Positions 962 through 62,646 of a stretch of DNA of 64,000 nt are shown piece after piece. Under the pieces are notes generated by a model. It worked only from the letters and a program-made list of their open reading frames with translations, was not told where the DNA came from and searched no databases. The translations under genes and the position numbers were made by a program. The DNA lies in the NCBI RefSeq assembly GCF_963675165.1, contig NC_087377.1, positions 3,502,978 through 3,566,977 on the forward strand. The letters are read 5' to 3'. Numbering within the stretch: position 1 is the first letter of the stretch; every line of letters starts with the position of its first letter. The DNA comes from Halichondria panicea. Its lineage: Eukaryota; Porifera; Demospongiae; Suberitida; Halichondriidae.

Positions 962-18508
<17,547 letters not shown>

Positions 18509-18913: not shown

Positions 18914-20953
18914 ATGGATCTGAGATGGCTCATTCTTTCAACAACTCTTGTGGCATCTATACAAGGTTTGTCTGTGCATGAGGAGTCAGTGCATTATGTT
19001 TCTATGTAGTATACATGTATTATGTTTGCAGCTCAGTTCACAATACAACCAGTATCAGTGGTACAGGCCCAAGGGCTGAATGCAGTGTTTGAGTGTCGGT
19101 ATCCTGGAGCACAAAATCGCAATTGGGGATTCAATGGAGAGTTTCCTACAGATGATAGCTACCCACCCAATGTGACTGTTGCTCTACCATTTGGAACACT
19201 GACCATCCCAGCCACAGGGCAGTGCAACAACACTGTGGTGCAGTGTGAGGCAGTCGTTAGAGACGGACAAATGTTCATATCTGAATTATCAGAAAATGCT
19301 ACCTTGCAAGTACAAGGTAGTCACAAACATTAAATAGCTTGTTTTTGTACCCCGTTCCTCTCAGGTCCTCTTTCAGCTGTCTCCAACCTCCATGCTCAGT
19401 CATCAAGTACCAACATCACAATCACCTGGGATGCCCCCTTCTCTCTTAACCTCACCACAGCTGAACCAGACATACAGTATTGTGTGGATGTGTACGATAG
19501 TGCCACTGATGTTCTACTACACTCTGAGTGTGGTATTATTGAGGAACGCTACACCTATTCCCCTAGCAACCCCTGCTCAACGTATGCATTGTTAGTGGCA
19601 CCTAAGAGTAATCTTGGCGGAGCTCTCAATGGAAGCATTGGTAAGTAGACTTATTGAAATGTGTGAGTGGCTAAATGAGATCACAATCTAACACAGCACG
19701 GTTTCAGGAATTCACAGTGCGGCCAGTATCATTGATACAAGCTGAAGGCCTGAAGGCAGTGTTTGAGTGTTTGTACCCTGGTGCCCTAAGTCACAGTTGG
19801 GGGATCAATGGAATGTACCCAGCTGATGATGCGTTTCCACCTGATGTAACTCGTACCCTACCGTCTGGTGATACTCCAGCAAGACTGTCCATTCCATCAA
19901 CAGGCCAATACAACAACACTGTGGTGCAGTGTAGGGCTGTGCTTGATGTGGGAGGAGATGCGCAGTTTGTGCAAACATGTGATGCTCTGTTGTTAGTACA
20001 AGGTATCCTGCTATCATTATAATAGCTTTACATTATAACACTTTAGGTCCACTGGGCTCTGTTACTGGACTGACACTGGACATGGTGACCTCTACTTCAG
20101 TGACTCTCACCTGGGATCCTCCCTTCTCTCTAGACCTCACCACAGCTGAGCCAGACATACAGTATTGTGTGGATGTACACAGTGTCCCTGGAAGACAACT
20201 GGTGGAGTCAACATGTGACATCATCGACACTAACTACACTTTCTCTACCAGTAATCAAGACCAGTTAGTGTTTACAGTGACACCAAGAAGCAATGTGGAG
20301 GGCAGTCTCAATGGAACTTCCAATGAACTAGTCGGACCTCCTTCGCAAGGTAAATGGTCTGTGTACCAAGCATTATCTATTATAGTTATGTAGTACCACT
20401 CTCTTCACAGCTAATGACACGATTACTGACATCTCACCATCGTCATCTCTTCCTGAGTCTATTCAACCACCCTCTATTTATACAATAGCAGGTGAGTAAT
20501 AAAATATGCTAAGCAGGCTTAACTGTCTAGTATGATTGGCTGTTTATACCCTATAATTATGTTATACAGTGTCTTCAGGTGTGACTGCTGTGGTAGTTCT
20601 ACTCCTACTCTTAGTCATTGCCATTTTAACAGCTGTTGTCGTAGTGAAACAAAAACTAAGGAACCACAAAGGTAAACTGTTGACAATTTTGTTTATTATA
20701 TTTACTATTTCTCTTTAATTTAGATGATGTTGTTGTATCAGATGGAAGAGTGGATTTGTCATCAACATTGCCAGGAATTGAGCAGCCTAACGAAGTTCAT
20801 GCTCCAGTGCTCAATAAGAACATTGCCTATGAGCAGACACGGATACCAAGACACAATGAACACACTACCACCATCGTCACCACGGTAGTAGCAATGGATA
20901 ATATTGAGCCTAGTCATGAGTACGAAGAAGTATTACCTCAGGGACATTTTTAG
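18914..20953 (+). CDS. Receptor A: Ig-FN3-Ig-FN3 transmembrane protein
   Basis: Eight exons: 18914-18965, 19032-19316, 19365-19640, 19697-20002, 20047-20349, 20411-20491, 20570-20671, 20724-20953; every intron is phase 1; 544 residues. Order: signal peptide (MDLRWLILSTTLVASIQG, 1-18), Ig-like 1 (~18-112), FN3-1 (~113-204), Ig-like 2 (~205-306), FN3-2 (~307-407), Ser/Pro stalk (~408-434), helix (~437-460), cytoplasmic tail (~461-544). Ig domains show the Cys-Trp-Cys core and N-glycosylation sequons; FN3 domains show the TxTWDxP strand. The tail has tyrosines in IAYEQT and HEYEEV. YEEV resembles Src-family SH2 ligands and is not a canonical ITIM. Ig1 is about 4 residues shorter than in the other genes. 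Role inferred as cell-surface recognition or adhesion; ligand unknown. Confidence 0.85.
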
Positions 20954-22413: not shown

Positions 22414-25400
22414 ATGGACCTGAGATGGCTCATTCTTTCAACAGCTCTTGTGGCATCTATACAAGGTTGGTCTCTCATGAGTCAAACTCAGTGCATTGTG
22501 TTTTTATGTGTTTGCAGCTCAGTTCGCAGTACAACCAGTGCCAGTGGTGCAGGCCCAAGGGCTGAATGCAGTGTTTGAGTGTTGGTATCCTGGAGCAGTA
22601 AATTACAATTGGGGATTCAATGGAGAGTTTCCTACTGACAATAGCTACCCACCCAATGTGACTGTTATTCCACCATCTAGTGACACCCCAGCAAAACTGA
22701 TCATCCTAACCACAGGCCTGTACAATAATACTGTTGTTCAGTGTTTGATAGTGGTTATAGTGGAAGGAGAGTTCGTTAGTCAACTGCATATATCAGAAAA
22801 TGCTACCTTGCAAGTACAAGGTAACCATAATCGGTCATTAACTATAAGTATAATTAACTCTATTGGCGTAGGAAGTGAGGTGGCTCCAGGGCTGGAGCCA
22901 ACCCTTGTCTTGTTGGAGAGCAATGTTTAGCTTGAACTGTTGGTTAGTTTAGCTACAGCATGCTGGCTGCAGCCAGCTAGCTATTAAATAAATTACGTGA
23001 TTATTATGCCTCAGTGCGCATGCGCAAGCGAGGTATACGGTAGTGTGTTTGTGTGTCTGTGTAGTGTGTTGTGTGTTTGTGTGTGTAGACTATAGATCAA
23101 AGAGCAAGTAAGAGTTTCTATAGGCTTCTATATCGCTTCTATAGTCATGTTTTTTATTCGTTGATTTGCAAAATAATGCTTCGTTCTTGAGTTATGCCTA
23201 TAGTTTTGCTTACTTGGAATGCCATTGCAGCCTTTTCAGAAGAGCACGTAACCAAACTTGTTTACTGAGTGTTGCTACTCTACTTAGTAGTTAGCTCTGC
23301 ACTGGAATGCTAGCTGCAAGAGTGAGAAGAGAGCTGCAAGGCTCTTCTGATGGCAACCATTAATTTTAGACTTGAACGTTTGGCATCAATCGTTTTTAAC
23401 AACATTCATTGTCGATCATTAACCCACTCTTTAAGTTTGCATGCAGCAAATTTATTACATTTGTGTGTGTAATGTAAAAATGTTCATCATGTGTATAAAT
23501 GAACTATTAGTAGCTTTATGTTATGTAGCTTTGGCATCTCCACCGAGGCATCAGCACCTGCGATGCTTTCGGCATTTCAATGATGGGCTATAGGTTTCAA
23601 AAGTAAAATGCAAAGTGATAGATTTACCACGGAGATAATGATTGATCTATGAAATAATTATAGTCTCGAAGTCCAGCCTCCTTCAGTCTTTGCAAGACTA
23701 CGAAGTTTAGAAGGGCGTGGTCAAACTACTATGAGTCCCCCTTGTAAAAAATCTTCCTACGCATCTGCTATATAAGTGTAACTATACAACTACCCCTTCT
23801 ATATATACAGGTCCTCTTTCATCTGTCTCCAACCTCCATGCTCAGTCATCAAGCACCAACATCACAATCACCTGGGATGCTCCCTTCTCTCTTAACCTCA
23901 CAACAGCTGAACCAGACATACAGTATTGTATGGATGTGTACGATAGTGCCACTGATGTTCTACTACACTCTGAGTGTGGTATTATTGAGGAACGCTACAC
24001 CTATTCCCCTAGCAACCCCTGCTCGACGTATGCGTTGTTAGTGACACCTAGGAGTAATCTTGACGGAGCTCTCAATGGAAGCATTGGTAAGTAGACTTAT
24101 TGAAATGTGTGAGTGGCTAAATGATATCACAATCTAACACAGCATGGTTTCTGGAATTCACAGTGCGGCCAGTATCAGTGATACAAGCTGAAGGCCTGAA
24201 GGCAGTGTTTGAGTGTTTGTACCCTGGTGCCCTGAGTCACAGTTGGGGGATCAATGGAATGTACCCAGCTGATGATGCGTTTCCACCTGATGTAACTCGT
24301 GCCCTACCGTCTGGTGATACTCCAGCAAGACTGTCCATTCCATCAACAGGCCAATACAACAACACAGTGGTGCAGTGTAGGGCTGTGATTGATGTGGGAG
24401 GAGATGCGCAGTTTGTGCAAACATGTGATGCTCTTAGCCTGATGTTAGTACAAGGTATCCTTACTAAAATGATAGCTATAACTTCACATTTTTTTATGCT
24501 TTGAGCACTTCAGGTCCACTGCATGGGTTCTGTTACTGGACTGAGACTGGACACGGTGACCTCTACTTCATTGACTCTCACCTGGGATACTCCCTTCTCT
24601 CTAGACCTCACCACAGCTGAGCCAGACATACAGTATTGTGTGGATGTGCACAGTGTCCCTGGAAGACAACTGGTGGAGTCATCATGTGACATCATCGACA
24701 CTAACTACACTTTCTCTACTAGTGATCAAGACCAGTTAGTGTTTACAGTGACACCAAGAAGCAATGTGGAGGGTAGTCTCAATGGAACCTCCAGTGAACT
24801 AGTCGGACCTCCTTCGCAAGGTAAATGGTCTGTGTACCAAGCATTATCTATTATAGTTATGTAGTACCACTCTCTTCACAGCTAACGATACGATTACTGA
24901 CATCTCACCATCGTCATCTCTTCCTGAGTCTATTCAACCACCCTCTATTTATACAATAGCAGGTGAGTAATAAAGTATGCTAAGCAGGCTTAACTGTCGT
25001 ATGATTGGCTGTTTATACCCTATAATTATGTTATACAGTGTCTTCAGGTGTGACTGCTGTGGTAGTTCTACTCCTACTCTTAGTCATCGCCATTTTAACA
25101 GCTGTTGTCATAGTGAAACGAAAACAAAGGAACCACAAAGGTAAACTGTTGACAATTTTGTTTATTGTACTTACTATTTCTCTTTAATTTAGATGATGTT
25201 GTTGTATCAGATGGAAGAGAGGATTTGTCATCAACATTGCCAGGAATTGAGCAGCCTAACGAAGCTCATGTTCCAGTGCTCAATAAGAACATTGCCTATG
25301 AGCAGACACGGATACCAAGACACAATGAACACACCACCACCATCGTCACCACGGTAGTAGCAATGGAGGATGAGAACACTGAGCCAAGTCATGAGTACGA

Positions 25401-25428
25401 AGAAGTATTACCTAAGGGACATTTTTAG
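22414..25428 (+). pseudogene. Receptor B: Ig-FN3-Ig-FN3 gene with frameshift in second FN3
   Basis: Exons match gene A: 22414-22465, 22518-22820, 23811-24086, 24143-24454, 24514-24820, 24882-24962, 25039-25140, 25193-25428. The fifth exon carries four extra bases near 24522-24530 (ccactgcatggg against ccactggg) relative to all paralogues. This shifts the frame and meets a TGA about 70 bases later, before the helix. If transcribed it would give a secreted Ig-FN3-Ig fragment; otherwise it is a pseudogene. The remaining exons are well preserved, including the helix and a tail with YEQT and YEEV, so the lesion is recent or an assembly error. Intron 2 is ~990 bp against ~50 bp in relatives. Ig2 has a 2-residue insertion. 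Confidence 0.75.
22821..23810 (+). other. Expanded intron 2 of receptor B
   Basis: The same intron is ~50 bp in the other six receptor genes, so ~940 bp has been inserted. It contains a CpG-bearing stretch ('cagtgcgcatgcgcaagcga', 23013-23032) followed by TG-rich DNA. No terminal repeats or coding region could be assigned. Confidence 0.5.
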
Positions 25429-26575: not shown

Positions 26576-26688
26576 CACTGTAAAAACAAAACTATAGTGA
26601 CAATTTCAGTCTTTTACACTGGTGAAGTAGAAAAATGGTGAAGCTCACCACTCAAATTGGTGACCTTCACCGGGGTGTTTTTACAGTG
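26576..26688. mobile_element. MITE with TIR 'cactgtaaaaac', empty site known
   Basis: Ends are 'cactgtaaaaac' and 'gtttttacagtg'. The uninterrupted sequence 'tcaatgacaaacagttt' is present in the paralogous spacers at about 21202 and 62903, while here it is split by this ~113 bp element. That proves insertion after the spacer duplication. Only a 2-bp repeat (tg) is visible at the junction. Confidence 0.7.
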
Positions 26689-26964
26689 TGACAAACAGTT
26701 TAGCAATATCTTCAGAGGGTCCTAACTTGAGTCGTAGCTTGAGTGGGTAGTCATCGTCCTTACACAACTCTTTGCGGCCATTGTCATATATAGAACACAG
26801 AGAGAGAGAACTCGGACACATCATTCTCAACCTGGACAAGAGGAGAGAGGAATTTTAGGGGATATACAAAAGATAATAGACAGGCTATATATATATAAAA
26901 TATAGAGCTCTGCATGCAGGTATTAGCTAGGCCGCCAGAGATCAAAAGAGAAGCAGTACATGCA

Positions 26965-27078
26965 AGTGATCAAGACCAGTGGGTGTTTACAGTGACACCA
27001 ATAAGTAATGTGGAGAGTAGTCTTAATGGAACCTCCAGCAGTGACACCAATAGTGAAAGTCGGACTTCTTTTGAAGTG
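26965..27078 (+). pseudogene. Relic of receptor FN3-2 exon
   Basis: About 115 bases match the end of the FN3-2 exon of the Ig/FN3 genes (coding for a SDQDQWVFTVTP-like stretch and LNGTSS). A small insertion is present, and the donor GT at its end is lost. It sits at the left edge of the duplicated block, so a receptor gene once preceded the giant gene. Confidence 0.65.
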
Positions 27079-27085
27079 CTTAATT

Positions 27086-28356
27086 CCAACTATGTTGCTA
27101 TAGCCTTTCTACACAATGGTTATCATACAGTAATGGATGTATTGCTATCAACATGTTGTTAGCTTTCTACATGTGTAAACATGAAAGGTGGCTTACTTAG
27201 CCACACACACCTCCGCACATGCACGCTCACACTGCCTATAATTATATAATGATGCCCCTGAGTATAAATACATATTAATCTTAATGGGGACAAACATAAC
27301 AGAGACAGATTTATTGTTACACTAGCTATAATAGTTCTGGTAAGTTCTTATGCAGTTTGCAATACTGATCTGTTACAGGAACATGGGGGGGGGGGCGGGT
27401 AATAATGGTTTGACCCTTATACAAAGGTGACCTTAGGGACTAGGATATGGCCTGTTGTTGCATATAGGTACTAGTGGAAAGTACAGGGAATTTGAGTATC
27501 AAAGTGGCGTTCTGTGAAGTGACGAGTTAGCTAGATATAAATTATTTTGATATAGATAAAGTATAGATATAGGTCTAGGTTAATGATAGTGGGCAGCGCA
27601 TTCCAAAGCCTAGTATAATACGGTTGAAATAGAAGTGACGGGTGGTATTGTAGTGCATGAGAGACATTGTGCAAGCTTGTTGGAAGTTATCAAACGAGTT
27701 TTTCTGCTTGAAGTATTCTTGGTGGCAAACTGGCTTATGTCAAAATTGTCAGCTAGCTGTTGTATGCATTTCACAAAGAACATAATGTCTGAGCCAGTGC
27801 ATTAAGGGTCCGCGCTAATAATAAAACGCATTTAAAAAACTCATAAAATAATTTTTTGCTTTTTCTAGTACTTTTGAGAGTATGCTAAGCTAGCCTCGAT
27901 TCAAGGCCGATTAAAATATGTATTTTAATCGGCCTGGAATCGAGGCTAATGTTAAGCAAGCTAGCCCTTTTTTCATCTGTATATCTGACTCCAAACTTTC
28001 CATTTCATCTTTTGACAAATATTGTGTTAATGAATTTTCTGCAACAGATTTTTCTCTGAAAATGCTAAAATTACCTACACACAGCATGTTATATCATCGT
28101 ATTATAGTGATTTTAACAGACTGAAATGTATGCCATTTCTAAAAGATATACTATTAAAAACGTTTTGTGTTAACATTTATATGCTTTTACTGTGTACCCG
28201 TATAATAGACTAATATAGTTTACTCCCTCAAGAATGCTGCAAGATCCCCCTATGGGGGGGTTGCTTTTTTCTCATCAATATATCAATTACCACATTCCAT
28301 TTACAAATCATTTCTGCATAATAGCTATAGAGCATCCCAGGATTATATCTCTTGCA
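27086..28356 (+). other. 5' flank of giant gene copy 2; left edge of second duplication unit
   Basis: The sequence 'ccaactatgttgctatagcc' onward matches window position 1 onward for about 160 bases, then diverges with insertions, including a G-run near 27386 and a foldback at 27891. The right end again resembles copy 1, with 'ctcttgca' directly before the ATG. Confidence 0.6.
27891..27948. mobile_element. Foldback MITE, family TAGCCTCGAT, 9-bp target duplication
   Basis: A near-perfect 58 bp palindrome starts 'tagcctcgattcaaggccga' and ends 'cggcctggaatcgaggcta'. It is flanked by 'atgctaagc' and 'atgttaagc', a 9-bp target duplication with one mismatch. A larger member is at 54905. Half-copies occur near 7275 and 63035. 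Confidence 0.65.
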
Positions 28357-42329: not shown

Positions 42330-42382
<53 letters not shown>

Positions 42383-48011: not shown

Positions 48012-48454
48012 ACTGTTAATTTAGTAGTTTGGTGACACTATTAATAGATGGGTAGCTGCTGAACTTTTAGCTTTGTTTTGTCTTCTAGACTTATTATTGT
48101 CCATGTCCCCCTTGCTGGCGGCTCTACTAATATAATAAATAGAGCGGGTATAAACGTAATTTTTCATTAGTGCAAACTTTCGTATGAATTTCCATTAATT
48201 TCTGTGTTCTATTCGTACAGCTCAGAATATAGCGATGTACACATGTAGAAGCTATTGCATTATTTCTTATTCAGAGTCTAATGCCTAAATATCCACCATA
48301 CGAAAATAATCCGCTATATAATTTATTATGGTACACACTGATAGTCAATTTACTATAATTTATATCTGGAATGATACATGTTTAGTTAATGATCTTTACA
48401 TCTCTACATTTTTACGGGGTTAATACTCTCTTGATTGCCACTAAAGCAATAATT
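48012..48454 (+). promoter_or_regulatory. 3' end of giant gene copy 2 and 5' region of receptor C
   Basis: Closely matches 18509-18913. An AATAAA string lies near 48134. The promoter-like block 'gtttagttaatgatcttta' is at about 48380-48398, ~57 bases before the ATG of gene C. Confidence 0.45.
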
Positions 48455-50465
48455 ATGGATCTGAGATGGCTCATTCTTTCAACAACTCTTGTGGCATCTA
48501 GATCTATACAAGGTTTGTCTGTGAGGAGTCAGTGCATAAATTATATGCTATAATTACGTATGCAGCTCAGTTCACAGTACAACCAGTGTCAGTGGTACAA
48601 GCCCAGGGGATAGATGCAGTGTTTGAGTGTCGGTATCTTGGAGCACAAAATCACAATTGGGAGATCAATGGAGAGTTTCCTGCTTACGATAACTACCCAC
48701 CAGATGTGACTGTTACCCCACCGTCTGGTGATACCCCAGCAACACTGGCCATCCCAGCTACAGCACAGCACAACAACACTGTGGTGCAGTGTGAGGTATT
48801 CGTTAGAGACGGACGAGGGATCATATCTGAATTATCAGAAAATGCTACCTTGCAAGTACAAGGTAGTCATAACCAATATTAAATAGCTTGTTTTGTACCC
48901 TGTTCCTCTCAGGTCCTCTTTCAGCTGTCTCCAATCTCCGTGTTCAGTCATCAAGCACTAACATCACAATCGCCTGGGATGCTCCCTTCTCTCTTAACCT
49001 CACCACAGCTGAACCAGACATACAGTATTGTGTGGATGTGTACGATAGTGCCACTGGTGTTCTACTACACTCTGAGTGTGGTATTATTGAGGAACACTAC
49101 ACCTATTCCCTTAGCAACCCCTGCTCGACATATGCGTTGTTAGTGACACCTAAGAGTAATCTTGACGGAGCTCTCAATGGAAGCATTGGTAAGTAGACTT
49201 ATTGAAATGTGTGAGTGGCTAAATGATATCACAATCTAACACAGCACGGTTTCAGAAATTCCCAGTGCGGCCAGTATCATTGATACAAGCTGAAGGCCTG
49301 AAGGCAATGTTTGAGTGTTTGTACCCTGGTGCCCTGAGTCACAGTTGGGGGATCAATGGAATGTACCCAGCTGATGATGCGTTTCCACCTGATGTAACTC
49401 GTACCCTACCGTCTGGTGATACTCCAGCAAGACTGGTCATTCCATCCACAGGCCAGTACAACAACACTATGGTGCAGTGTAGGGCTGTGCTTGATGTGGG
49501 AGGAGATGCGCAGTTTGTGCAAACATGTGATGCTCTGTTGTTAGTACAAGGTATCCTTAATATAGCTATCATAATAGCTTTACATTATAACACTTCAGGT
49601 CCATTGGCTTCTATTACTGGACTGAGACTGGAAATGGTGACCTCTACTTCAGTGACTCTCACCTGGGATGCTCCTTTCTCTCTAGACCTCACCACAGCTG
49701 AGCTAGACATACAGTATTGTGTGGATGTGCACAGTTTCCCTGGAAGACAACTGGTGGAGTCAACATGTGACATCATCGACACTAACTACACTTTCTCTAT
49801 CAGTGATCAAGACCAGATAGTATTTACAGTGACACCAAGAAGCAATGTGGAGGGCAGTAGTCTCAATGGAACCCCCAATGAACTAGCCGGACCTCTTTTG
49901 CACGGTAATTATAACTGTCTGTGTACCAAATAGCCACATGATACTTAATCTTTCCCACCCCCTCTCCTCACAGGTAACGGCACGATCACTGTCGGCACAC
50001 CACTTCCTACTAATGAGTCTGCTCAACCACAGTTTATTACAATAGCAGGTGGGTAATGAAATAGGCTAAGTCACGGCACATTATATCTATACTGCATGCA
50101 GTGTCTTCAGGTGTGACTGCTGTGGTTGTTCTACTCCTACTCTTAGTCATCGCCATTTTAACCGCTATTGTCACAGTGAAACGAAAACAAAGGAATCACA
50201 AAGGTATAAATGTTTATGTTAATTTTTTATTGTTTTTATTAATTTAGGTGATGTTGTTGTATCAGATGGAAGAGTGGATTTGTCATCAACATTGCCAGGA
50301 ATTGAGCAGCCTAACGAAGCTTATGTTCCAGTGCTCAATAAGAACATTGCCTATGAGCAGACACAGATACCAAGACACAATAAACACACCACCACCATTG
50401 TCACCACGGCAATAGCAATGGAGAATATTGAGCCAAGTCATGAATACGAAGAAATATTGCTCTAA
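48455..50465 (+). CDS. Receptor C: Ig-FN3-Ig-FN3 transmembrane protein, YEEI tail
   Basis: Exons: 48455-48512, 48566-48862, 48913-49188, 49245-49550, 49599-49904, 49974-50048, 50102-50203, 50248-50465; all introns phase 1; 545 residues. The plan is that of gene A, but the signal peptide has two extra residues, the stalk is of another type (starting GNGTIT, rich in Thr/Pro), and the tail ends YEEILL rather than YEEVLPQGHF. The tail has three tyrosines (AYVPV, AYEQT, EYEEI); YEEI is the textbook Src-family SH2 ligand. Position after giant gene 2 mirrors A after giant gene 1, so A and C arose from the block duplication and later diverged at the 3' end, probably by conversion with an E-like gene. 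Confidence 0.85.
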
Positions 50466-50824
50466 ATATTCAAAGAGTCATGAAATTCTCATCAATAAGT
50501 TTCAAATTGCATAAAATTATTATCACAGTGTACTAATTGCTTTTCAAGTAGATGTACAATGTATAAGCACTTTATGCATGTGCGTGTAAGTGATAATTAT
50601 AGCACAACTAGATTTTACCATAATTATTAATAATCTGATATATTTTTTCTGCACTACGTAATCGATCATTATTCACGCAGACATAATAATTAATTTGTGC
50701 TCACTGAATGTCTTACTGATTCTAATGTCTATATAACAGATTAAAGATCCTTAACTAAACAAGTAGATCTTTAATGCGCCACAAATGTGCATGCTTTACT
50801 AGATCTATGAAAGCACTAAAAGAG
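50466..50824 (+). other. Spacer between receptors C and D
   Basis: About 360 AT-rich bases. The first part resembles the 3' flank of gene E (57993 on). The motif 'ttaactaaac' near 50751 is the reverse complement of the first half of the promoter-like block seen before the other receptors; the forward block is not present. Confidence 0.4.
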
Positions 50825-52902
50825 ATGGAACTGAGATGGTTCTTTCTTTCAACAGCTCTTGCATCTATACAAGGTTGGTCAGTGATGAGTCAGTGGATTG
50901 TGTTTCTATATGCATGATACTATTTGCAGCTCAGTTCATAGTACAACCAGTGTCAGTGGTACAAGCCCAGGGGATAGATGCAATGTTTGGGTGTCGGTAT
51001 CCTGGAGCACTAACTCACAATTGGGGGCTCAATGGAGAGTTTCCTACTGACGATAACTATCCATCTGATGTGACTGTTATCCCACCGTCTGGTGATACCC
51101 CAGCAACACTGACAATCCCAGCCACAGCACAGTACAACAACACTGTTGTGCAGTGTGAGGCCTTGGTTAGAGACGGACGAGGGTTAATATCTAAATTATC
51201 AGTAAATGCTACCTTGCAAGTACAAGGTAGTCACAAACATTAAATAGCTTGTTTTGTACCCTGTTCCTCTCAGGTCTTCTTTCAGCTGTCTCCAACCTCC
51301 ATGCTCAGCCATCAAGCACCAACATCACAATCACCTGGGATGCCCCCTTCTCTCTTAACCTCACCACAGCTGAACCAGACATACAGTATTGTGTGGATGT
51401 GTACAATAGTGCCACTGGTGTTCTACTACACTCTGAGTGTGATATTATTGAGGAACGCTACACCTATTCCCCTAGCAACCCCTATTCGTATATGTTCACA
51501 GTGACACCTAGGAGCAATGTAGATGGAGCTCTCAATGGGACCACTGTGTTCGGATGTATACAAGATGGTAAGAATGTGACTTTGCTAAATTGAGTCAATT
51601 TGAGCTGGCTAATTGATTTCAACCACATGCACTCAAATACAGCACAGTCTCAGAACTTCACAATTCAGCCATTATCAGTGATACAAGCTGAAGGCCTGGA
51701 GGCAATATTTGAGTGTTTGTACCCTGGTGCCCTGAGTCACAGATGGGGGGTCAATGGAATGTACCCAGCTGATGATGCGTTTCCACCTGATGTAACTCGT
51801 ACCCTACCGTCTGGTGATACTCCAGCAATACTGGCCATCCCAGCCACACGCAAGTACAACAACACTGTGGTGCAGTGTAGGGCTGTGCTTGATGTGGGAG
51901 GAGATGCGCAGATTGTGCAAACATGTGATGCTTTGTTGTTAGTACAAGGTATCCTTAATACAGTATCATTATAATAGCTTTACATTATAACATTTCAGGT
52001 CCATTGGGTTCTGTTACTGGACTGACACTGGACATGGTGACCTCAAACTTCAGTGACTCTCGCATGGGATGCCCCCTTCTCTTTTAACCTCACCACGGCT
52101 GAGCCAGACATACAGTATTGTGTGGATGTGTACAGTTCCCTGGAGGACAACTGGTGGAGTCATCATGTGATATCATCCGCACTAACTACACTTTCTCTAC
52201 CAGTGATCAAGACCAGTTAGTGTTTACAGTGACACCAAGAAGTAATATGGAGGGCAGTCTCAATGGAACCTCCAATGAACTATTCGGACCTCCTTCGCAA
52301 GGTAAATGGTCTGTGTACCAAGCATTATCTATTATAGTTATGTAGTACCACTCTCTTCACAGTTAACGATACGATTACTGACATCTCACCATCGTCATCT
52401 CTTCCTGAGTATATTCAACCACCCTCTATTTATACAATAGCAGGTGAGTAATAAAATATGCTAAGCAGGCTTAACTGTCGTATGATTGGCTATTTATACC
52501 CTATAATTATGTTATACAGTGTCTTCAGGTGTGACTGCTGTGGTAGTTCTACTCCTACTCTTATTCATCGCCATTTTAACAGCTGTTGTCATAGTGAAAC
52601 AAAAACTAAGGAACCACAATGGTAAACTGTTGACAATTTTGTTTATTGTATTTACTATTAATTTAGATGATGTTGTTGTATCAGATGGAAGAGTGGATTT
52701 ATCATCAACATTGCCAGGAATTGAGCAGCCTAACGAAGCTCATGCTCCAGTGCTCAATAAGAACATTGCTTATGAGCAGACACGGATACCAAGACACAAT
52801 GAACACACCACCACCATCGTCACCACGGTAGTAGCAATGGGGGATGAGAACACTGAGCCAAGCCATGAGTACGAAGAAGTATTACCTCAGGGACATTTTT
52901 AG
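50825..52902 (+). pseudogene. Receptor D: Ig-FN3-Ig-FN3 gene with disrupted second FN3
   Basis: Exons: 50825-50873, 50930-51226, 51274-51567, 51643-51948, 51999-52301, 52363-52443, 52520-52621, 52667-52902. FN3-1 is the long type ending IQDG, shared with E. Exon 5 has one extra base near 52045 and one missing base near 52135. The frame between them is wrong and meets TAA near 52086, although total exon length is unchanged. The stretch between resembles the FN3-1 exon of the same gene more than other FN3-2 exons, as expected from conversion. Outcome: a secreted Ig-FN3-Ig fragment or nothing. Helix and tail (YEQT, YEEVLPQGHF) are otherwise intact. Ig1 has Gly where the others have Glu before the first Cys. 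Confidence 0.75.
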
Positions 52903-53924: not shown

Positions 53925-54876
53925 ATGAAAGCATCAGCCAAAGCAATATCAATCTGCATACTTTTAGAGTGCCTCACTGTGATCCAAGGTAAAGGACATG
54001 CATGCAAAGCAAAGCAATTTCTACTGATTAAACAATGCTATATATATATTTTACTAGTGGCCAACTTCTTATAATAATTATACATGCAATAATTTGTTGT
54101 AATTTGATCAATGCAGCTTCCCCTGTTGAAGCAGTCAAGCCCAACAACACAGAGATTACTCCCAATGTCCATATCCAGATACTCTGTGGTAGAGATGACC
54201 CTCAGTGTATGCCAGGAATCCCAGGAATTAATGGGAGAGATTGGGGAGCCAGGGATGCTGGGGGAAAAGGGAGAGCTAGGGATACAGGGACTAAAAGGGG
54301 ACAGGGGAGAACAAGGACCCGCCGGTGGAGGGGTCACTTATATAAGGTGAGGGAAGACATCTTGTCCCTCTGTGTCAGGAACATTGCTGCTCTATCACGG
54401 AATAGCCGCTGGGGGTTGGTATGCACATGTTGGAGGTGGAGCGAACTATCTATGTATGCCGCATAACCCTCAATATGGAGCTTTTCAAGCTGGTGTGCAA
54501 GGTATACAAGCCCTATCTATATGGAACTGAGTACCAATCGTATCCATGGTGGACCACTTGGCTCACACGATCACAATGTCCCTTGTGCTGTTTGCTATGC
54601 ATCTACAAGAGTGTCGCTGCTGATGCTGCCAGCTCGAGTGGAATGCCCAACATCTTGGACTCGTGAATACACGGGCTATCTGATGTCAACTTATTTTGCT
54701 AATAACCACCATCGAACCATGTACGAGTGTGTTGACCAATCTCCTGACAGAATACCAGGAAGCGCACCAAATACAGACGGTGCAGTATTCTACCATGTAG
54801 AGGCTACCTGCAATGGCCTACCTTGTGGACCTTATGACCCACAGAAAGAACTAACATGTGCTGTGTGTACCAAGTA
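53925..54876 (+). pseudogene. Short-chain collagen (C4-like) pseudogene
   Basis: Exon 1 (53925-53988) encodes a signal peptide (MKASAKAISICILLEC). Exon 2 from 54117 encodes a linker and then Gly-X-Y triplets (GEKGELGIQGLKGDRGEQGP in part). The 3' part encodes a Cys-rich C-terminal domain with motifs HNVPCAVC, WTREYTGYLM, GAVFYHVEATCNGLPC and a final TCAVCTK, as in sponge short-chain collagen C4-like proteins. The frame is broken at least three times: one extra base between PGIPGING and the next triplet (about 54233); TGA where the family has Trp after YIR (about 54347); and two frame changes within 54510-54545. The conserved motifs lie in different frames, so this is a decayed gene. It is not related to the receptors around it and was carried in the duplicated spacer. 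Confidence 0.75.
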
Positions 54877-55309
54877 GACTGAGCTAACAATACATAGACT
54901 ATACTAGCCTCGATCCCAGGCCGAGTTTTTGCTTTTATAACGATTAGGCGAACAAGTTGTTCGCCTAACCCTTATAAAAGCAAAAACTCGGCCTGGGATC
55001 GAGGCTAAGACTATACATGTAAGAAACTTAGTTCTTTAGCAGTGCCAGCTAGTGTGATTATTGTATATATTCATTGAATGCTGCATGGGTGTACATCTAT
55101 GCACAAAGTAAAACATTTGCTGTATACATGGTTGAAAATTGGGGCTGTCACAACATCATTCATATATAGGTCACATGACACACGTATGAAACCTCCATGA
55201 AAATGTTTATTTCTCCTGCAGATTTGCATTCTACAACTAGATTTATGGTATAAATGTGTTTGCAAAACCACCCCATCACAATTCTATCACTGAATATACT
55301 GAATGCTAT
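54877..55309 (+). other. Spacer after collagen-like pseudogene
   Basis: It begins with the foldback element 54905-55007. The rest matches 22050-22290 (3' flank of the collagen relic), for example 'gtaagaaactgagttcttt'. No gene is supported. Confidence 0.5.
54905..55007. mobile_element. Foldback MITE, family TAGCCTCGAT, perfect 9-bp target duplication
   Basis: A ~103 bp almost perfect palindrome starts 'tagcctcgatcccaggccga' and ends 'cggcctgggatcgaggcta'. It is flanked on both sides by 'agactatac' (54896-54904 and 55008-55016). Confidence 0.75.
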
Positions 55310-55661
55310 TATGTTTAGTTAATGGTCTTTACTACATTTACGAGGGTTATAATGTTTGCAACTCAGTTCACAGTGTATAGTACGGAAGCCCGTATAGGGG
55401 CCATTTAGTTCTGCGTAAGTATTCCACTCTAGAATGCACTGGAATTTAATTGTATCAGATGGAAGAGTGGATTTGTCATCAACATTGCCAGGAATTGAGC
55501 AGCCTAACGAAGCTCATGCTCCAGTGCTCAATAAGAACATTGCTTATGAGCAAACACAGATACCAAGACACAGTGAACACACCACCACCATCGTCACCAC
55601 GGTAATAGCAATGAAGAACATAATTGAGCCAAGTCATGAATACGAAAAAGTATTGCTCTAA
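55310..55661 (+). pseudogene. Receptor relic: promoter block plus lone tail exon
   Basis: At 55312-55370 the promoter-like block ('tgtttagttaatggtcttta') and the first bases of an Ig1 exon ('gcaactcagttcacagt') remain. Then all domains are missing and a complete last exon follows (from about 55452, stop at 55661) coding for the cytoplasmic tail, with YEQT and YEKV before LL. This is a large internal deletion of an eighth receptor gene. Confidence 0.7.
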
Positions 55662-55941
55662 ATATTCAAAGCATTTCAAGGAGACAATTTATAAGTCTGT
55701 GCAATAATAATTATGTTTGCATAAAAATTATTGTCACGGTGTTGCTTTTGATAGGCTTTTGATAGATCTAGGTACGTGTGTGTACAAGTTATAAACAATT
55801 CAAGTGATGGCACAGCTATATTTAACCATAATCTCTCTGCACAATGTCATAACAATTATTCACTAAAATGTTACTTGTTTGGTTAACGATCTTTATTGTG
55901 CCCACAAATGCGCATGCCTTAGAAGAGATCTCTGGGAAGAG
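55662..55941 (+). promoter_or_regulatory. 5' region of receptor E
   Basis: Nearly the same as 60288-60582 before gene G, so tail relic plus spacer plus E parallels F tail plus spacer plus G. The block 'gtttggttaacgatcttta' lies at about 55877, ~50 bases before the ATG. Confidence 0.45.
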
Positions 55942-57992
55942 ATGGATCTGAGATGGCTCTTTCTTTCAACCGCTTTTGTGGTATCTATAGAAGGTTGGTT
56001 TGTGATGAGTCAGTGGATTGTGTTCTATGTCTATGCATGGTATTATATATGTTTGCAGCTCAGTTCACAGTACAGCCAGTGTCAGTGGTACAGGCCCAGG
56101 GGATAGATGCAGTGTTTGAGTGTCGGTATCCTGGAGCACAAATTTACAATTGGGGGCTCAATGGAGAGTTTCCTGCACACAATAACCTCCCACCTGATGT
56201 AACTGTTATCCTACCGTCTGGTGATATCCCAACAAAACTGATCATAGCCACAGGGCAGTACAACAACACTGGGGTGCAGTGTGAGGCAGTCATTAGAGCC
56301 GGACCAGTGTTCATACCTAAATTATCAGTAAATGCTACCTTGCAAGTACAAGGTAGTCACAACTAACATTAAATATCTTGTTTTGTACCCCCTTTCCTCA
56401 GGTCCTCTTTCAGCTGTCTCCAACCTCCGTGCTCAGTCATCAAGCACCAACATCACAATCACCTGGGATGCTCCCTTCTCTCTTAACCTCACCACAGCTG
56501 AACCAGACATACAGTATTGTGTGGATGTGTACGATAGTGCCTCTGGTGTTCTACTACACTCTGAGTGTGGTATTATTGAGGAACGCTACACCTATTCCCC
56601 TAGCAATCCCTATTTGTACATGTTCACAGTGACACCTAGGAGCAATGTAGATGGAGCTCTCAATGGGACCACTTTGTTCAGATGTATACAAGATGGTAAG
56701 AATGTGACTTTGTACTAAGTTTGAGTTGGCTAATTGATTTCTCAACCACATGCACTCAAATACAGCACAGTCTCAGAACTTCACAATTCAGCCAGTATCA
56801 GTGATACAAGCTAAAGGCCTGAAGGCAGTGTTTGAGTGTTTGTACCCTGGAGCCCTGAGTCACAGATGGGGAATCAATGGAACGTACCCAGCTGATGATG
56901 CGTTTCCACCTGATGTAACTCGTACCCTACCGTCTGGTGATACTCCAGCAAGACTGGCCATTCCATCAACAGACCAGTACAACAACACTGTGGTGCAGTG
57001 TAGAGCTGTGCTTGATGTGGGAGGAGATGCGCAGTTTGTGCAAACATGTGATGCTCTCTTGTTAGTACAAGGTATCCTGCTATCATTATAATGAGCTTTA
57101 CATTATAACACTTCAGGTCCATTGGGTTCTGTTACTGGACTGAGACTGGACATGGTAACCTCTACTTCAGTGACTCTCATCTGGGATGCTCCCTTCTCTC
57201 TAGACCTCACCACAGCTGAGCCAGACATACAATATTGTGTGGATATGCACAGTGTCCCTGGAGGACAACTGGTGGAGTCAACATGTGACATTATCGACAC
57301 TAACTACACTTTCTCTACCAGTGAACAAGACCAGTTAGTGTTTGCAGTGACACCAAGAAGCAATGTGGAGGGTAGTCTCAATGGGACCTCCAGTGAACTA
57401 GTCGGACCTCCTTTGCAAGGTAATTAAAATGGTCTGTGTACCAAGTAGGATAGCCACATGATACTTAATCTTTCCCACCCTCTCTCCTCAAAGGTAACGG
57501 CACGATCACTGACAGCTCACCATCACCATCTCTTCCTACTATTGAGTCTGCTCAACCACCATTTATTACAATAGTTGGTGGGTATTAAAATAGGCTAAGC
57601 CGCGGCAGACTTAACTATATACCCATGCTTGCAGTGTCTTCAGGTGTGACTGCTGTGGTAATTCTACTCTTACTCTTAGTCATTGCCATTTTAACAGCTG
57701 TTGTCATAGTGAAACGAAAACAAAGGAACCACAAAGGTAAATGTTTATGTTAACTTTTTATAATTTAGGTGATGTTTTTGTATCAGATGGAAGAGTGGAT
57801 TTGTCATCAACATTGCCAGGAATTGAGCGGCCTAACGAAGCTCATGCTCCAGTGCTCAATAAGAACATTGCTTATGAGCAGACACAGATACCAAGACACA
57901 ATGAACACACCACCACCATCGTCACGACGGTAGTAGCAACGGACGATGAGAACATTGAGCCAAGTCATGACTACGAAGAAATATTGCTCTAA
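55942..57992 (+). CDS. Receptor E: Ig-FN3-Ig-FN3 transmembrane protein, YEEI tail
   Basis: Exons: 55942-55993, 56059-56352, 56402-56695, 56766-57071, 57117-57419, 57494-57577, 57635-57736, 57769-57992; all introns phase 1; 552 residues in one frame. Signal peptide MDLRWLFLSTAFVVSIEG. FN3-1 is the long type ending RCIQDG (shared with D); the stalk is the GNGTIT type (shared with C) and the tail ends HDYEEILL. The acceptor of the stalk exon is preceded by 'cctcaaag' rather than 'cctcacag', still AG. Ig1 differs from A-D in the C-C' region (PAHNNLPPD). Predicted plasma-membrane receptor; intracellular partner perhaps an SH2 protein. Confidence 0.85.
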
Positions 57993-58247
57993 ATATCCAA
58001 ATAGCATTTCAAAGAGACATGCAATTCAAATCAATATAATCACTAGTATGTCACGATGTTGATTTTCAAGTAGATTTGTAAGCACTTATTAGGCAGGTGC
58101 GTGTATAAACGATTCAAGTGATATAGCACAACTAGCATGCATGATTCAACACATTTTATTTTGTATAAATTATCATGTGCTCACTGAATGTTACTTGTTT
58201 GGTTAATGATCTTTTGTGCCACAAAGGCACATGCCTATAAGCTATTG
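57993..58247 (+). promoter_or_regulatory. 5' region of receptor F
   Basis: A short AT-rich spacer related to the 3' flank of gene C. The block 'gtttggttaatgatctttt' is at about 58197, ~33 bases before the ATG. Confidence 0.4.
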
Positions 58248-60287
58248 ATGGATCTGAGATGGCTCTTTCTATCAACAGCTCTTGTATCTATAGAAGGTTG
58301 GTTTGTGTTGAGTCAGTGGATTGTGTTTCTGTCTATGCATGGTATTATAATTATGTTTGCAGCTCAGTTCACAGTACAACCAGTGTCAGTGGTACAGGCC
58401 CAGGGGATAGATGCAGTGTTTGAGTGTCAGTATCCTGGAGCACAAAGTTACAATTGGGGGATCAATGGAGAGTTTCCTTCACACAATAGCCTCCCACCTG
58501 ATGTAACTGTTACCCTACCGTCTGGTGATCTCCCAACAAAACTGATCATAGCCACAGGGCAGTACAATATCACTGTTGTGCAGTGTGAGGCATTGGTGGC
58601 TAGAGCCGGACGAGTGTTCATATCTGAATTATCAGTAAATGCTACCTTGCAAGTACAAGGTAGTCACAAACATTAAATAGCTTGTTTTAGTACCCTGTTC
58701 CTCAGGTCCTCTTTCAGCTGTCTCCAACCTCCATGCTCATTCATCAAGCACCAACATCACAATCACCTGGGATGCTCCCTTCTCTCTTAACCTCACCACA
58801 GCTGAACCAGACATACAGTATTGTGTGGATGTGTACGATAGTGCCACTGGTGTTCTACTATACTCTGAGTGTGGTATTATTGGGGAACACTACACTTATT
58901 CCCCTAGCAACCCCTGCTCAATGTATGCATTGTTAGTGACACCTAGGAGCAATCTTGACGGAGCTCTCAATGGAAGCATTGGTAAGTAGACTTATTGAAA
59001 TGTGTGAGTGGCTAAATGAGATAACAATCTAACACAGCACGGTCTCAGGGATTCACAGTGCGGCCAGTATCAGTGATACAAGCTAAAGGTCTGAAGGCAG
59101 TGTTTGAGTGTTTGTACTGTGGTGCCCTGAGTCACAGTTGGGGAATCAATGGAATGTACCCAGCTGATGATGCATTTCCACCTGATGTAACTCGTATCCT
59201 ACCGTCTGATGATACCCCGGCAACACTGGCCATTCCATCAACAGGCCAGTATAACAACACTGTGGTGCAGTGTAGGGCAGTGCTTGATGTGGGAGGAGAT
59301 GCACAGATTGTGCAAACATGTGATGCTCTGTTGTTAGTACAAGGTATCCTTGATAGCTATAATTATAGCTTTACACAATTTTTTTATGCACTTCAGGTCG
59401 ACTGGGTTCTATTACTGGACTGAGACTGGACATGGTGACGTCTACTTCAGTGACTCTCACCTGGGATGCTCCTTTCTCTCTAGACCTCACCACAGCTGAG
59501 CTATACATACAGTATTGTGTGGATATGCACAGTTTCCCTGGAAGACAACTGGTGGAGTCAACATGTGACATCATCAACACTAACTACACTTTCTCTACCA
59601 GTGATCAAGACCAGTTAGTATTTACAGTGACACCAAGAAGCAATGTGGAGGGCAGTCTCAATGGAACCTCCAATGAACTATTCGGACCTCTTTCGCAAGG
59701 TAAATGGTCTGTGTACCAAGCATTATCTATTATAGTTATGTAGTACCACTCTCTTCACAGCTAACGATACGATTACTGACATCCCACCATCGTCATCTCT
59801 TCCTGAGTATATTCAACCACCCTCTATTAATTTTATACAATAGCAGGTGAGTAATAAAATATGCTAAGCAGGCTTAACTGTCGTATGATTGGCTGTTTAT
59901 ACCCTATAATTATGTTATACAGTGTCTTCAGGTGTGACTGCTGTGGTAGTTCTACTCCTACTCTTAGTCATTGCCATTTTAACAGCTGTTGTCATAGTGA
60001 AACGAAAACAAAGGAACCACAAAGGTAACTGTTGACAATTTTGTTTATTGTATTTACTATTTCTTAGGTGATGTTGTTGTATCAGATGGAAGAGTGGATT
60101 TGTCATCAACATTGCCAGGAATTGAACAGCCTAACGAAGCTCATGCTTACTCAATAAGAACATTGCCTATGAGCAGACACGGATACCAAGACACAATGAA
60201 CACACCACCACCATCGTTACCACGGTAGTAACAATGGAGGATGAGAGCACTGAGCCAAGTCATGAATACGAAGAAGTATTGCTCTAA
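58248..60287 (+). pseudogene. Receptor F: gene with lesions in stalk and tail
   Basis: Exons: 58248-58296, 58363-58659, 58706-58981, 59038-59343, 59397-59699, 59761-59846, 59923-60024, 60068-60287. The ectodomain (Ig-FN3-Ig-FN3) is open. In the stalk exon, five extra bases ('attaatttta' against 'attta', about 59828) give an in-frame TAG just before the helix. In the last exon four bases are missing near 60146 ('catgcttactc' against 'catgctccagtgctc'), shifting the tail. As it stands the gene could make a complete soluble ectodomain of ~430 residues. Ig2 has an extra cysteine (LYCGA for LYPGA). The tail remnant encodes YEEVLL, joined to an ANDTIT-type stalk, a combination not seen in the other genes. 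Confidence 0.75.
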
Positions 60288-60582
60288 ATATTCAAAGCAT
60301 TTCAATTTATAAGTCTGTGCAATAATAATTATGTTTGCATAAAAATTATTGTCACGGTGTTGCTTTTGATAGGCTTTGATAGATCTATAAGCACTTAGGC
60401 ACGTGTGTGTACAAGTTATAAACAATTCAAGTGATGGCACAGCTATATTTAACCATAATCTCTCTGCACAAAATAATGTCATAACAATTATTCACTAAAA
60501 TGTTACTTGTTTGGTTAACGATCTTTATTGCGCCCACAAATGCATGTGCATGCCTTAGGCCGGAAGAGATATCTGGGAAGAG
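60288..60582 (+). promoter_or_regulatory. 5' region of receptor G
   Basis: Near-copy of 55662-55941. The block 'gtttggttaacgatcttta' lies at about 60509, ~55 bases before the ATG. Confidence 0.45.
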
Positions 60583-62646
60583 ATGGATCTGAGATGGCTC
60601 TTTCTTTTAACCGCTTTTGTGGTATCTATAGAAGGTTGGTTTGTGATGAGTCAGTGGATTGTGTTCTATGTCTATGCATGGTATTCTATATGTTTGCAGC
60701 TCAGTTCACAGTACAACCAGTGTCAGTGGTACAGGCCCAGGGGATAGATGCAGTGTTTGAGTGTCAGTATCCTGGAGCACAAACTTACATTTGGGGGCTC
60801 AATGGAGAGTTTCCTTCACACAATAGCCTTCCACCAGATGTGACTGTTACCCCACCGTCTGGTGATATCCCAACAAAACTGATCATAGCCACAGGGCAGC
60901 ACAATATCATTGTTGTGCAGTGTGTGGCAGTGGTTAGAGACGGACAAATATTTATACCTGAATTATCAGTAAATGCTACCTTGCGAGTACAAGGTAGTCA
61001 CAACCAACATTAAATAGCTTGTTTTGTACCCTGTTCCTCTCAGGTCCTCTTTCAGCTGTCTCCAACCTCCATGCTCATTCATCAAGCACCAACATCACAA
61101 TCACCTGGGATGCTCCCTTCTCTCTTAACCTCACCACAGCTGAACCAGACATACAGTATTGTGTGGATGTGTACGATAGTGCCACTGGTGTTCTACTACA
61201 CTCTGAGTGTGGTATTATTGGGGAACGCTACACCTACTCTCCTAGCAACCCCTGCTCAACGTATGCATTGTTAGTGACACCTAGGAGTAATCTTGACGGA
61301 GCTCTCAATGGAAGCATTGGTAAGTAGACTTATTGAAATGTGTGAGTGGCTCAATGATTCCATGATAACAATCTAACACAGCACAGTCTCAGGGATTTAC
61401 AGTGCGGCCAGTATCAGTGATACAAGCTGAAGGCCTGAAGGCAGTGTTTGAGTGTTTATATCCTGGTGCCCTGAGTCACAGTTGGGGGATCAATGGAATG
61501 TACCCAGCTGATAATGCGTTTCCACCTAATGTAACTCGTACCCTACCGTCTGGTGATACTCCAGCAAGACTGGCCATTCCGTCAACAGGCCAGTACAACA
61601 ACACCGTGGTGCAGTGTAGGGCTGTGCTTGATGTGGGAGGAGATGTGAAGATTGTGCAAACATGTGATGCTCTGTTGTTAGTACAAGGTATCCTTAATAT
61701 AGTATCATTATAATAGCTTTACATTATAACATTTCAGGTCCATTGGGTTCTGTTACTGGACTGACACTGGACATGGTGACCTCTACTTCAGTGACTCTCG
61801 CCTGGGATGCTCCCTTCTCTCTAGACCTCACCACAGCTGAGCCAGACATACAGTATTGTGTGGATGTGCACAGTGTCCCTGGAGGACAACTGGTGGAGTC
61901 ATCATGTGACATCATCGACACTAACTACACTTTCTCAACCAGTGATCAAGACCAGTTAGTATTTACAGTGACACCAAGAAGCAATGTGGAGGGTAGTCTC
62001 AATGGAACCTCCAGTGAACTAGTCGAACCTCCTTCGCAAGGTAAATGGTCTGTGTACCAAGCATTATCTATTATAGTTATGTAGTACCACTCTCTTTACA
62101 GCTAACGACACGATTACTGACATCTCACCATCGTCATCTCTTCCTGAGTCTATTCAACTACCCTCTATTTATACAATAGCAGGTGAGTAATAAAATATGC
62201 TAAGCAGGCTTAACTGTCTAGTATATGATTGGCTGCTTATACCCTGTAATTACGTTATACAGTGTCTTCAGGTGTAACTGCTGTGGTAGTTCTACTCCTA
62301 CTCTTAGTCATCGCCATTTTAACAGCTGTTGTCGTAGTGAAACAAAAACAAAGGAACCACAAAGGTAAACTGTTGACAATTTTGTTTATTATATTTACTA
62401 TTTCTCTTTAATTTAGGTGATGTTGTTGTATCAGATGGAAGAGTGGATTTGTCATCAACATTGCCAGGAATTGAGCAGCCTAACGAAGCTCATGCTCCAG
62501 TGCTCAATAAGAACATTGCTTATGAGCAGACACGGATACCAAGACACAATGAACACACCACCACCATTGTCACCACGGTAGTAGCAATGGATAATATTGA
62601 GCCTAGTCATGAGTACGAAGAAGTATTACCTCAGGGACATTTTTAG
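60583..62646 (+). CDS. Receptor G: Ig-FN3-Ig-FN3 transmembrane protein, YEEV tail
   Basis: Exons: 60583-60634, 60700-60993, 61044-61319, 61382-61687, 61738-62040, 62102-62182, 62263-62364, 62417-62646; all introns phase 1; 547 residues. Signal peptide MDLRWLFLLTAFVVSIEG. Ig1 is closest to E and F (PSHNSLPPD), FN3-1 is the short type (GSIG end), the stalk is the ANDTIT type and the tail is as in A (AYEQT, HEYEEVLPQGHF). Thus the 5' half belongs with E/F and the 3' half with A/B, a mosaic. The 3' flank also matches that of A, so an exchange point lies inside the gene. It is the last recognisable gene in the window. Confidence 0.85.

Follow-up and report, generated by a model that had tools for sequence, protein, structure and literature searches.

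The stretch analysed here, a window of 64,000 nucleotides from the demosponge Halichondria panicea (contig C1:3502978-3566977; the genome comprises 131 Mb in 39 contigs), holds between positions 18914 and 62646 a tandem cluster of genes that, judged from their sequence, probably encode type I cell-surface receptors with immunoglobulin (Ig) and fibronectin type III-like (FN) domains, a transmembrane (TM) segment and a tyrosine-bearing tail. The limits proposed for this cluster by the initial annotation proved exact: exon 1 of the first gene (G1) starts at 18914, and the tail exon of the last (G7) ends at 62646. Seven genes and two relics of one layout had been described; the window does contain seven copies of gene length, together with fragments at 26965-27038 and 55423-55679, but only four of the seven (G1, G3, G5 and G7) are fully open, with small frameshifts in G2, G4 and G6.

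The gene copies share 84-94% DNA identity over 1.6-2.7 kb. For one of them (G4, 50825-52902) the exon borders were set by hand, and these were transferred by alignment to the 15 gene-length copies, G4 included, of the larger cluster to which the window genes belong (cluster A); four more cluster-A tail copies lie outside this model set. Each exon border shows AG/GT in 13 of the 15 models, the exceptions being G2 and A3446, in which the alignment misplaced the first two exons. Nine models are open (the four window genes named above, together with A3438, A3451, A3580, A3650 and A3693 outside the window), and six are not (G2, G4, G6, A3446, A3476 and A3500). The resemblance exceeds chance, in view of the copy identity, the AG/GT borders, the 69 tail copies found genome-wide and the selection on the tyrosine blocks described below. 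The members in the window are as follows (SP, signal peptide; aa, amino acids; Ig1, FN1, Ig2 and FN2 numbered in protein order):

18914..20953, plus strand: G1, open eight-exon receptor gene, 544 aa, tail HEYEEV, borders transferred by alignment; exons SP 18914-18965, Ig1 19032-19316, FN1 19365-19640, Ig2 19697-20002, FN2 20047-20349, stalk 20411-20491, TM 20570-20671, tail 20724-20953
22414..25428, plus strand: G2, gene-length copy, tail HEYEEV; the start codon lies near 22414, and the Ig1 exon, set off by an intron of about 1 kb, occupies approximately 22518-22822 (SP and Ig1 placed by eye and tblastn); exons FN1 23811-24086, Ig2 24143-24454, FN2 24514-24820, TM 25039-25140, tail 25193-25428; frameshift of +4 nt at the FN2 start
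26965..27038, plus strand: relic, piece of an FN2 exon, 92% identical to the reference
48455..50472, plus strand: G3, open eight-exon receptor gene, 545 aa, tail EAYVPV, IAYEQT, HEYEEI
50825..52902, plus strand: G4, eight exons, hand-marked reference, tail open (HEYEEV), frame broken by +1 nt in FN2 (exon 51999-52301)
55423..55679, plus strand: relic, lone open tail exon (HEYEKV)
55942..58004, plus strand: G5, open eight-exon receptor gene, 548 aa, tail HDYEEI
58248..60295, plus strand: G6, eight exons, of which the stalk exon (59761-59846) has +5 nt and the tail exon changes frame
60583..62646, plus strand: G7, open eight-exon receptor gene, 547 aa, tail HEYEEV
62417..62646, plus strand: tail exon of G7, type example, with the blocks NIAYEQT and EPSHEYEEVLP kept and the linker between them free

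Rfam gave no match in the window at gathering score.

Protein layout and domain assignments

The eight exons encode signal peptide, Ig, FN3-like, Ig, FN3-like, stalk, TM and tail in this order, one domain per exon, in phase 1 wherever the phase was read. The nine open cluster-A proteins measure approximately 540-551 aa, and show a hydrophobic N terminus, one strong TM segment (KD19 3.35-3.63; both signal peptide and TM were called by hydropathy) and 7-11 ectodomain sequons.

The two domain names given in the initial annotation did not fare equally well. Ig is firm as a family profile: F20, C22, W32, L61 and C75 are invariant across 24 sequences, and the Cys-Trp-Leu-Cys core of the immunoglobulin superfamily (IgSF) is found at this level. 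Searched against the PDB, as had been advised, a profile of 24 Ig exons matches a titin Ig best (E 1e-6), and the best 60 of 81 matches are antibodies, T-cell receptor chains, titin, Robo2, obscurin and other Ig-domain proteins. On the other hand, Pfam gives the single G7 protein only an Ig_3 row at E 0.093 (13.7 bits vs a cut-off of 30), which counts against the Ig call. FN2 lies just below the fn3 cut-off (E 4e-5, 24.2 bits vs 25), FN1 has no fn3 row in the same scan, and the FN profiles reach only E 0.04 and 0.056 against the PDB. All Pfam rows for the entire G7 protein fell under their cut-offs, and NCBIfam returned none. Rows for DUF4945, IgaA, Rifin, influenza NS2 and BTB, all below cut-off, were rejected as chance, and a combined Ig and FN alignment was set aside because its FN rows were misaligned.

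One tail in two clusters

A genome-wide search with the tail gave 72 matches, three of them second halves of tails already matched, and reading the window together with the retrieved regions yielded 69 copies, eight of them inside the window. Cluster A holds 19 tails, all on the plus strand, over 255 kb (C1:3.44-3.70 Mb). Of the 50 tails of type B, 47 lie at C1:6.91-7.75 Mb, distributed over both strands; another is found at C1:8.72 Mb, and the remaining two at C2:1.56 Mb. The 47 form a second cluster (B), of 840 kb and approximately 3.2 Mb from cluster A, which carries the tail under a different ectodomain, with the exon order, read by eye, Ig-FN-X-Y-Z-stalk-TM-tail; the Pfam scans assigned X, Y and Z to no family. 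The tail is thus common to two ectodomains, Ig-FN-Ig-FN in A and Ig-FN-X-Y-Z in B. The first proposal, that Ig/FN receptors with tyrosine tails lie clustered here and duplicate, is borne out, and the sequences show birth and death of copies. Twelve pattern matches on viral contigs included no relative. Three cluster-B Ig exons (L134-L136, at C1:7.367, 7.504 and 7.690 Mb), 137-185 kb apart, have identical protein sequence, which may reflect recent triplication or an assembly effect.

A tail was counted as open if 68 codons, counted from the block start, preceded the first stop; 49 of the 69 passed (16 A, 33 B), and the other 20 were left out of every conservation count. At least four of these 20 (L079, L088, L089 and L097) are open from SDG/ADG onward and keep their tyrosines; they may merely have a shorter first block and be otherwise intact. 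The rule also retained L099 and L102, which have a stop and a frame change, respectively, right after the last tyrosine.

Tyrosine motifs and their constraint

The type A tail reads ...NIAYEQT...EPSHEYEEV/I, and type B reads ...NEAYAPV...NIAYEQT...GEYESIEPVHEYEDV...ANYVNVN. Two tyrosines per intact tail had been claimed, and both sites are kept (NIAYEQT tyrosine, Y37, in 48/49 open tails; HxYE tyrosine, Y74, in 49/49), but a third is present in G3 and, in all, in 7 of the 16 open cluster-A tails. The additional NEAY tyrosine occurs in these seven and in all 33 B tails; the latter also all carry the YESI tyrosine, and 21 of them YVN[VI]. YEEI had been singled out as the Src SH2 ligand; the exact motif is found in only 3/49 tails, but YE[ED][IV], that is, the Src-family ligand pattern of phosphotyrosine (pY), two acidic residues and Ile/Val, is present at the sequence level in 46/49, and the genome does encode a Src-family kinase. 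The core motif YxxI/L/V is found in 49/49. Immunoreceptor tyrosine-based activation and inhibition motifs (ITAM and ITIM) and the single-tyrosine hemITAM were scored by their general definitions, and a relaxed tandem pair, in which Val is accepted and the spacer may be 5-12, matched 31/33 B tails and 1/16 A tails. By sequence, the tails are of the looser YxxI/V signalling type.

Constraint on the tyrosines had been named beforehand as a test, which the tyrosine blocks pass; its refuting outcome did not appear. In pooled Nei-Gojobori estimates of the ratio of non-synonymous to synonymous change (dN/dS), given here in the order within A, within B and A vs B, the two blocks lie between 0.16 and 0.27 throughout: 0.27, 0.21 and 0.18 for NIAYEQT, and 0.16, 0.16 and 0.22 for the HxYE block (EPxHEYEEVLP). 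The entire tail gives 0.46, 0.39 and 0.57, and the linker between the blocks 0.56, 0.88 and 1.23, the last figure being near saturation (proportion of synonymous differences, pS, 0.70). Conservation of the HxYE block is not due to recent homogenisation, because its synonymous divergence is high (pS 0.29-0.56); Y74 is encoded by both TAT and TAC.

Among 71 SH2 matches in the genome, the best is a Src-family kinase, whose own best PDB match is Src (E 8e-156). Its SH2 stretch KHYRVRRLDEGGFFI aligns closely with KHYKIRKLDSGGFYI of Src, a stretch which we take to hold the tyrosine lining the pY+3 pocket.

Change in the ectodomain

Across the nine open cluster-A genes (36 pairs), dN/dS is 0.71 for Ig1, 0.39 for FN1, 0.60 for Ig2, 0.58 for FN2, 0.84 for the stalk, 0.31 for TM and 0.45 for the tail; TM and FN1 are constrained, and Ig1 and the stalk looser. 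Within Ig1 (14 cluster-A exons), the BC stretch (between Cys and Trp) gives 8.2, a figure that is not firm, as it rests on almost no synonymous change, and the FG stretch (after the second Cys) gives 1.19, vs 0.55 elsewhere in the domain; when the loop pattern is shifted circularly, one shift in 102 is equally extreme. Cluster B was sampled as 29 Ig exons (27 distinct; the genome has more); there, one Ig type shows the same tendency (BC 2.23 and FG 1.21 vs 0.55), and the other shows it weakly (BC 0.53 and FG 1.19 vs 0.80). Loop-focused change in Ig1 suggests, on these sequence comparisons, diversification, and is no proof of it. Intron divergence was dropped as a neutral baseline, since it depended on the alignment (0.08-0.35).

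Mosaic origin and relatives

In domain trees, cluster-A Ig2 joins the Ig exons that stand in tandem on C8 as an array (ultrafast bootstrap, UFBoot, 98), cluster-A FN1 joins the FN exons found at four places on C1 (6.34, 7.78, 7.79 and 7.94 Mb; UFBoot 90), and the cluster-B FNs join those of C8 (UFBoot 100); the grouping of cluster-A Ig1 with the Ig of the same four C1 loci has a support of only 37. The domain trees and the shared tail therefore indicate exon shuffling, and point to a mosaic origin of the domains.

The relatives are known as exon orders, not gene models. At C1:6.34 Mb, a TM exon, an ITIM-like VVYADL exon (one of three in the genome) and a DEATH domain (PF00531, 24.1 bits vs 22.6, E 4e-5) come after the Ig and FN exons, in this order and on the same strand. 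The order at C1:7.79 Mb is similar, with a half-length DEATH match 81% identical to that at 6.34 Mb and without a Pfam call; no DEATH open reading frame (ORF) was found in the 6 kb downstream of the 7.94-Mb locus, so that a DEATH match was seen at two (6.34 and 7.79 Mb) of the three C1 loci read downstream. Another tail, tyrosine/proline-rich (YEGL, TYEVV) and taken from the C8 array, gave 51 matches, 47 of them on C4; matches lie at C4:0.54-0.79 and 1.38-1.81 Mb and at C8:4.49-4.52 Mb. DEATH-like matches of 33-36% identity also occur within the cluster-B interval (C1:6966081, 7305308, 7612689 and 7702051).

It is conceivable, though we hold it to be unlikely, that all these elements form one combinatorial recognition system spread over several chromosomes, in which phase-1 exon shuffling would attach various signalling ends to a single pool of Ig-FN heads (the YEEV/YVNV tail, VVYADL with DEATH, and the YEGL/TYEVV/polyproline tail), yielding paired activating and inhibitory/death receptors for a self/non-self choice. 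If true, a combinatorial self/non-self receptor system would exist near the root of animals.

Neighbouring and other genes

Part of the cluster lies within a larger duplication:

8908..20934, plus strand: duplicated unit, left copy, NIDO/VWD-like/EGF gene followed by G1
39114-50458: duplicated unit, right copy, ending in G3, 90-95% identical to the left copy in pieces

The multi-exon NIDO/VWD-like/EGF gene (VWD below cut-off) occupies 8908-17900 and 39114-47550, duplicated along with G1/G3, and in both copies a (CA)n array directly precedes the VWD-like exon (12559-12676 and 42333-42427). Its NIDO exon has 39 matches in all, of which the 18 with at least 76% identity are all on C1. We considered that this 30-kb duplication might be an assembly artefact, with both haplotypes placed in tandem; the 5-10% divergence and the further NIDO gene copies on C1 make this less likely.

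Other features include two ORFs of 76% DNA identity (2228-3112, 294 aa, without Pfam match; 31176-32099, 307 aa), a mucin-like ORF with a signal-peptide-like start and 36-bp Thr-rich repeats in 5.6 copies (28219-28749), and, between G4 and the relic tail, ORFs that by eye resemble short-chain collagen with a C-terminal domain (54032-54877). Elsewhere in the genome, silicatein-like genes, in which serine replaces the cathepsin cysteine (a change that we assume to be the silicatein mark), were seen at three places on C2 (DCGASYAF) and two on C6 (CGSSYAF), some of them adjoining at C2:656-668 kb; a sixth match, with the cathepsin form CGSCWAF, was read as a control. These genes make a siliceous demosponge the most likely bearer of the genome.

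Proposed function and alternatives

We judge it somewhat probable, from the sequence features above, that these genes encode recognition receptors of a demosponge which signal via phosphotyrosine to SH2 proteins. From what is read directly in the sequence (a tail that is shared and conserved, modular exons, copies born and lost), we infer the steps of phosphorylation and SH2 docking. The outermost Ig domain (Ig1) would bind a variable partner, and ligand-driven clustering would lead a Src-family kinase to phosphorylate NIAYEQT and HxYE[ED]V/I, the second site then holding Src-type SH2 proteins through Val/Ile at pY+3. The pY+3 pocket is a determinant of SH2 specificity, and Grb2 requires Asn at pY+2 (PMC7337045, in excerpt); in cluster B, the extra YESI and the C-terminal YVNV, of Grb2 type with Asn at pY+2, could add docking sites. 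Copies would diversify at the BC and FG loops of Ig1, tandem and segmental duplication would make or lose them, and the natural role might be the recognition of other cells, conspecific tissue or microbes.

Several observations weigh against this interpretation. Whole-domain dN/dS stays below 1 in every cluster-A exon, the BC value of Ig1 has the weakness given above, and BC and FG are named by Cys/Trp landmarks only; the loop test is weak, 7/102 and 18/102 shifts being as extreme for the two cluster-B Ig types in the order given above, and in Ig2 the BC stretch is conserved (0.30) beside FG 1.16, with 7/104 shifts as extreme. The tail blocks were delimited after viewing the alignment, the block before NIAYEQT is itself fairly conserved (0.58, 0.41 and 0.50), ten further tail columns equal Y74 in invariance, the A vs B linker value is near saturation, and gene conversion can distort dN/dS. 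Y37 is encoded by TAT only, so that it gives no synonymous evidence by itself, and YEQT matches no nameable SH2 class. Strict ITAM (0/49), hemITAM (0/49) and ITIM (5/49; 1 A, 4 B) are absent or rare; Pfam finds no domain up to E 0.1 in the concatenated cluster-B protein, because of which the FN label there rests on position; and three of the seven window genes are broken.

Microbe sensing and allorecognition are sub-cases of the recognition-receptor reading. That the genes encode microbe-sensing or phagocytic immune receptors, whose repertoire would be selected by symbionts and pathogens, as in the expanded sponge NLRs, is a serious possibility that we place a little short of even. The copy number is large, many copies are broken, and one relative of the outer Ig-FN module stands upstream of a DEATH domain; excerpts of the comparison literature (PMC11876637, PMC13119343, PMC12018476, PMC7337045, PMC4704026, PMC12909245, PMC12065747, PMC3549757, PMC11999971, PMC12723187), on which the following comparisons also draw, report 126 NACHT+LRR genes in Dysidea avara and Ig-TIR receptors in sponges. 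However, none of the ectodomains put through Pfam showed a domain known to bind microbes.

Allorecognition occurs in sponges, and an allorecognition role for these genes is advanced as a hypothesis, one that we consider rather doubtful: the clusters would correspond in the sponge to what the allorecognition complex is in Hydractinia, with the match of Ig1 alleles between neighbours deciding fusion or rejection. Chromosomal IgSF clusters in which some copies are broken, like the Hydractinia complex of 40 genes, YxxI/V tails of the type reported in the excerpts for Hydractinia candidates and Botryllus FcoR, and the loop-focused change of Ig1 would agree with it. Nonetheless, whole-Ig1 dN/dS is 0.71-0.73, the high polymorphism required of such genes is a matter of many genomes and the data here are one assembly, and the sponge recognition molecules named in those excerpts are aggregation factors.

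Outside the recognition-receptor reading, the proteins could be ordinary adhesion molecules whose tails bind cytoskeleton or trafficking machinery. YxxPhi is an endocytic sorting motif, formally matched by YEEV, YEEI, YEDV and YESI with Val/Ile at +3, and Ig and FN3 are frequent in adhesion proteins; yet YVNV and the conserved YEQT indicate no single sorting role, and the acidic +1/+2 positions kept in YE[ED][IV] are unneeded for YxxPhi, so we regard this explanation as improbable. That the copies are mostly decaying repeats of little function is very hard to believe: many are broken or partial (3/7 window genes, 6/15 modelled cluster-A genes, up to 20/69 tails), but TM, FN1 and the tyrosine blocks are under purifying selection and 9/15 modelled cluster-A genes are fully open. 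For the recognition-receptor reading, the family offers a delimited set of genes, two intervals on the map and tail peptides of known sequence.

Comparison with known systems

The initial annotation had likened the organisation of the cluster to Hydractinia Alr and Botryllus fester. The first parallel stands; the second does not, because the excerpts describe fester as a protein with a sushi domain and with three TM segments by prediction, which is no Ig/FN3 parallel. By description, the organisation of Hydractinia Alr and of Botryllus FcoR comes closer than that of fester. Alr (chromosome 3) shares with the sponge genes, in the portions of the sources used, dozens of clustered IgSF genes, possible pseudogenes and tail tyrosine motifs; the sponge genes differ in their FN-like domains and exon-shuffled shared tail, strict ITAM being absent and ITIM rare. 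FcoR, described there as a type I protein of 520-610 aa with Ig and sushi domains and ITIM, hemITAM or core YxxI/L/V tails, resembles the sponge receptors in type I topology, Ig domains, similar length and the core motif of their tails; it differs in its sushi domain and in that it can carry ITIM/hemITAM. The Pfam scan of G7 gave no sushi row up to E 0.1.

Vertebrate clusters of KIR/LILR type also combine tandem Ig receptors, varied outer domains, tyrosine signalling and birth-and-death evolution; this is likeness only, the sponge motifs are mostly not ITIM/ITAM, and no homology is claimed. Among sponges, the Ig-TIR receptors and the Geodia receptor tyrosine kinase with Ig-like domains, as described in the excerpts, are likewise IgSF receptors, but the genes modelled here have no TIR or kinase domain. 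The excerpts name only aggregation factors and glyconectins for sponge cell recognition, and no receptor family with signalling tails; aggregation factors are proteoglycan complexes that are secreted, unlike the predicted type I receptors described here, with their tyrosine tails. A literature search judged mainly by title and abstract, covering few subscription papers, recognised no description of such a sponge family.

Clustered IgSF receptors with tyrosine tails are already known from Hydractinia, Botryllus and vertebrates; what is new here, as read from sequence, is a tail shared across differing ectodomains, together with a DEATH-linked relative. Cnidarian and tunicate allorecognition receptors are, according to the excerpts, unrelated and converge on tyrosine-motif signalling, and a family in a sponge that follows this logic, with a measurable constraint on its tyrosines, would extend the pattern to Porifera.

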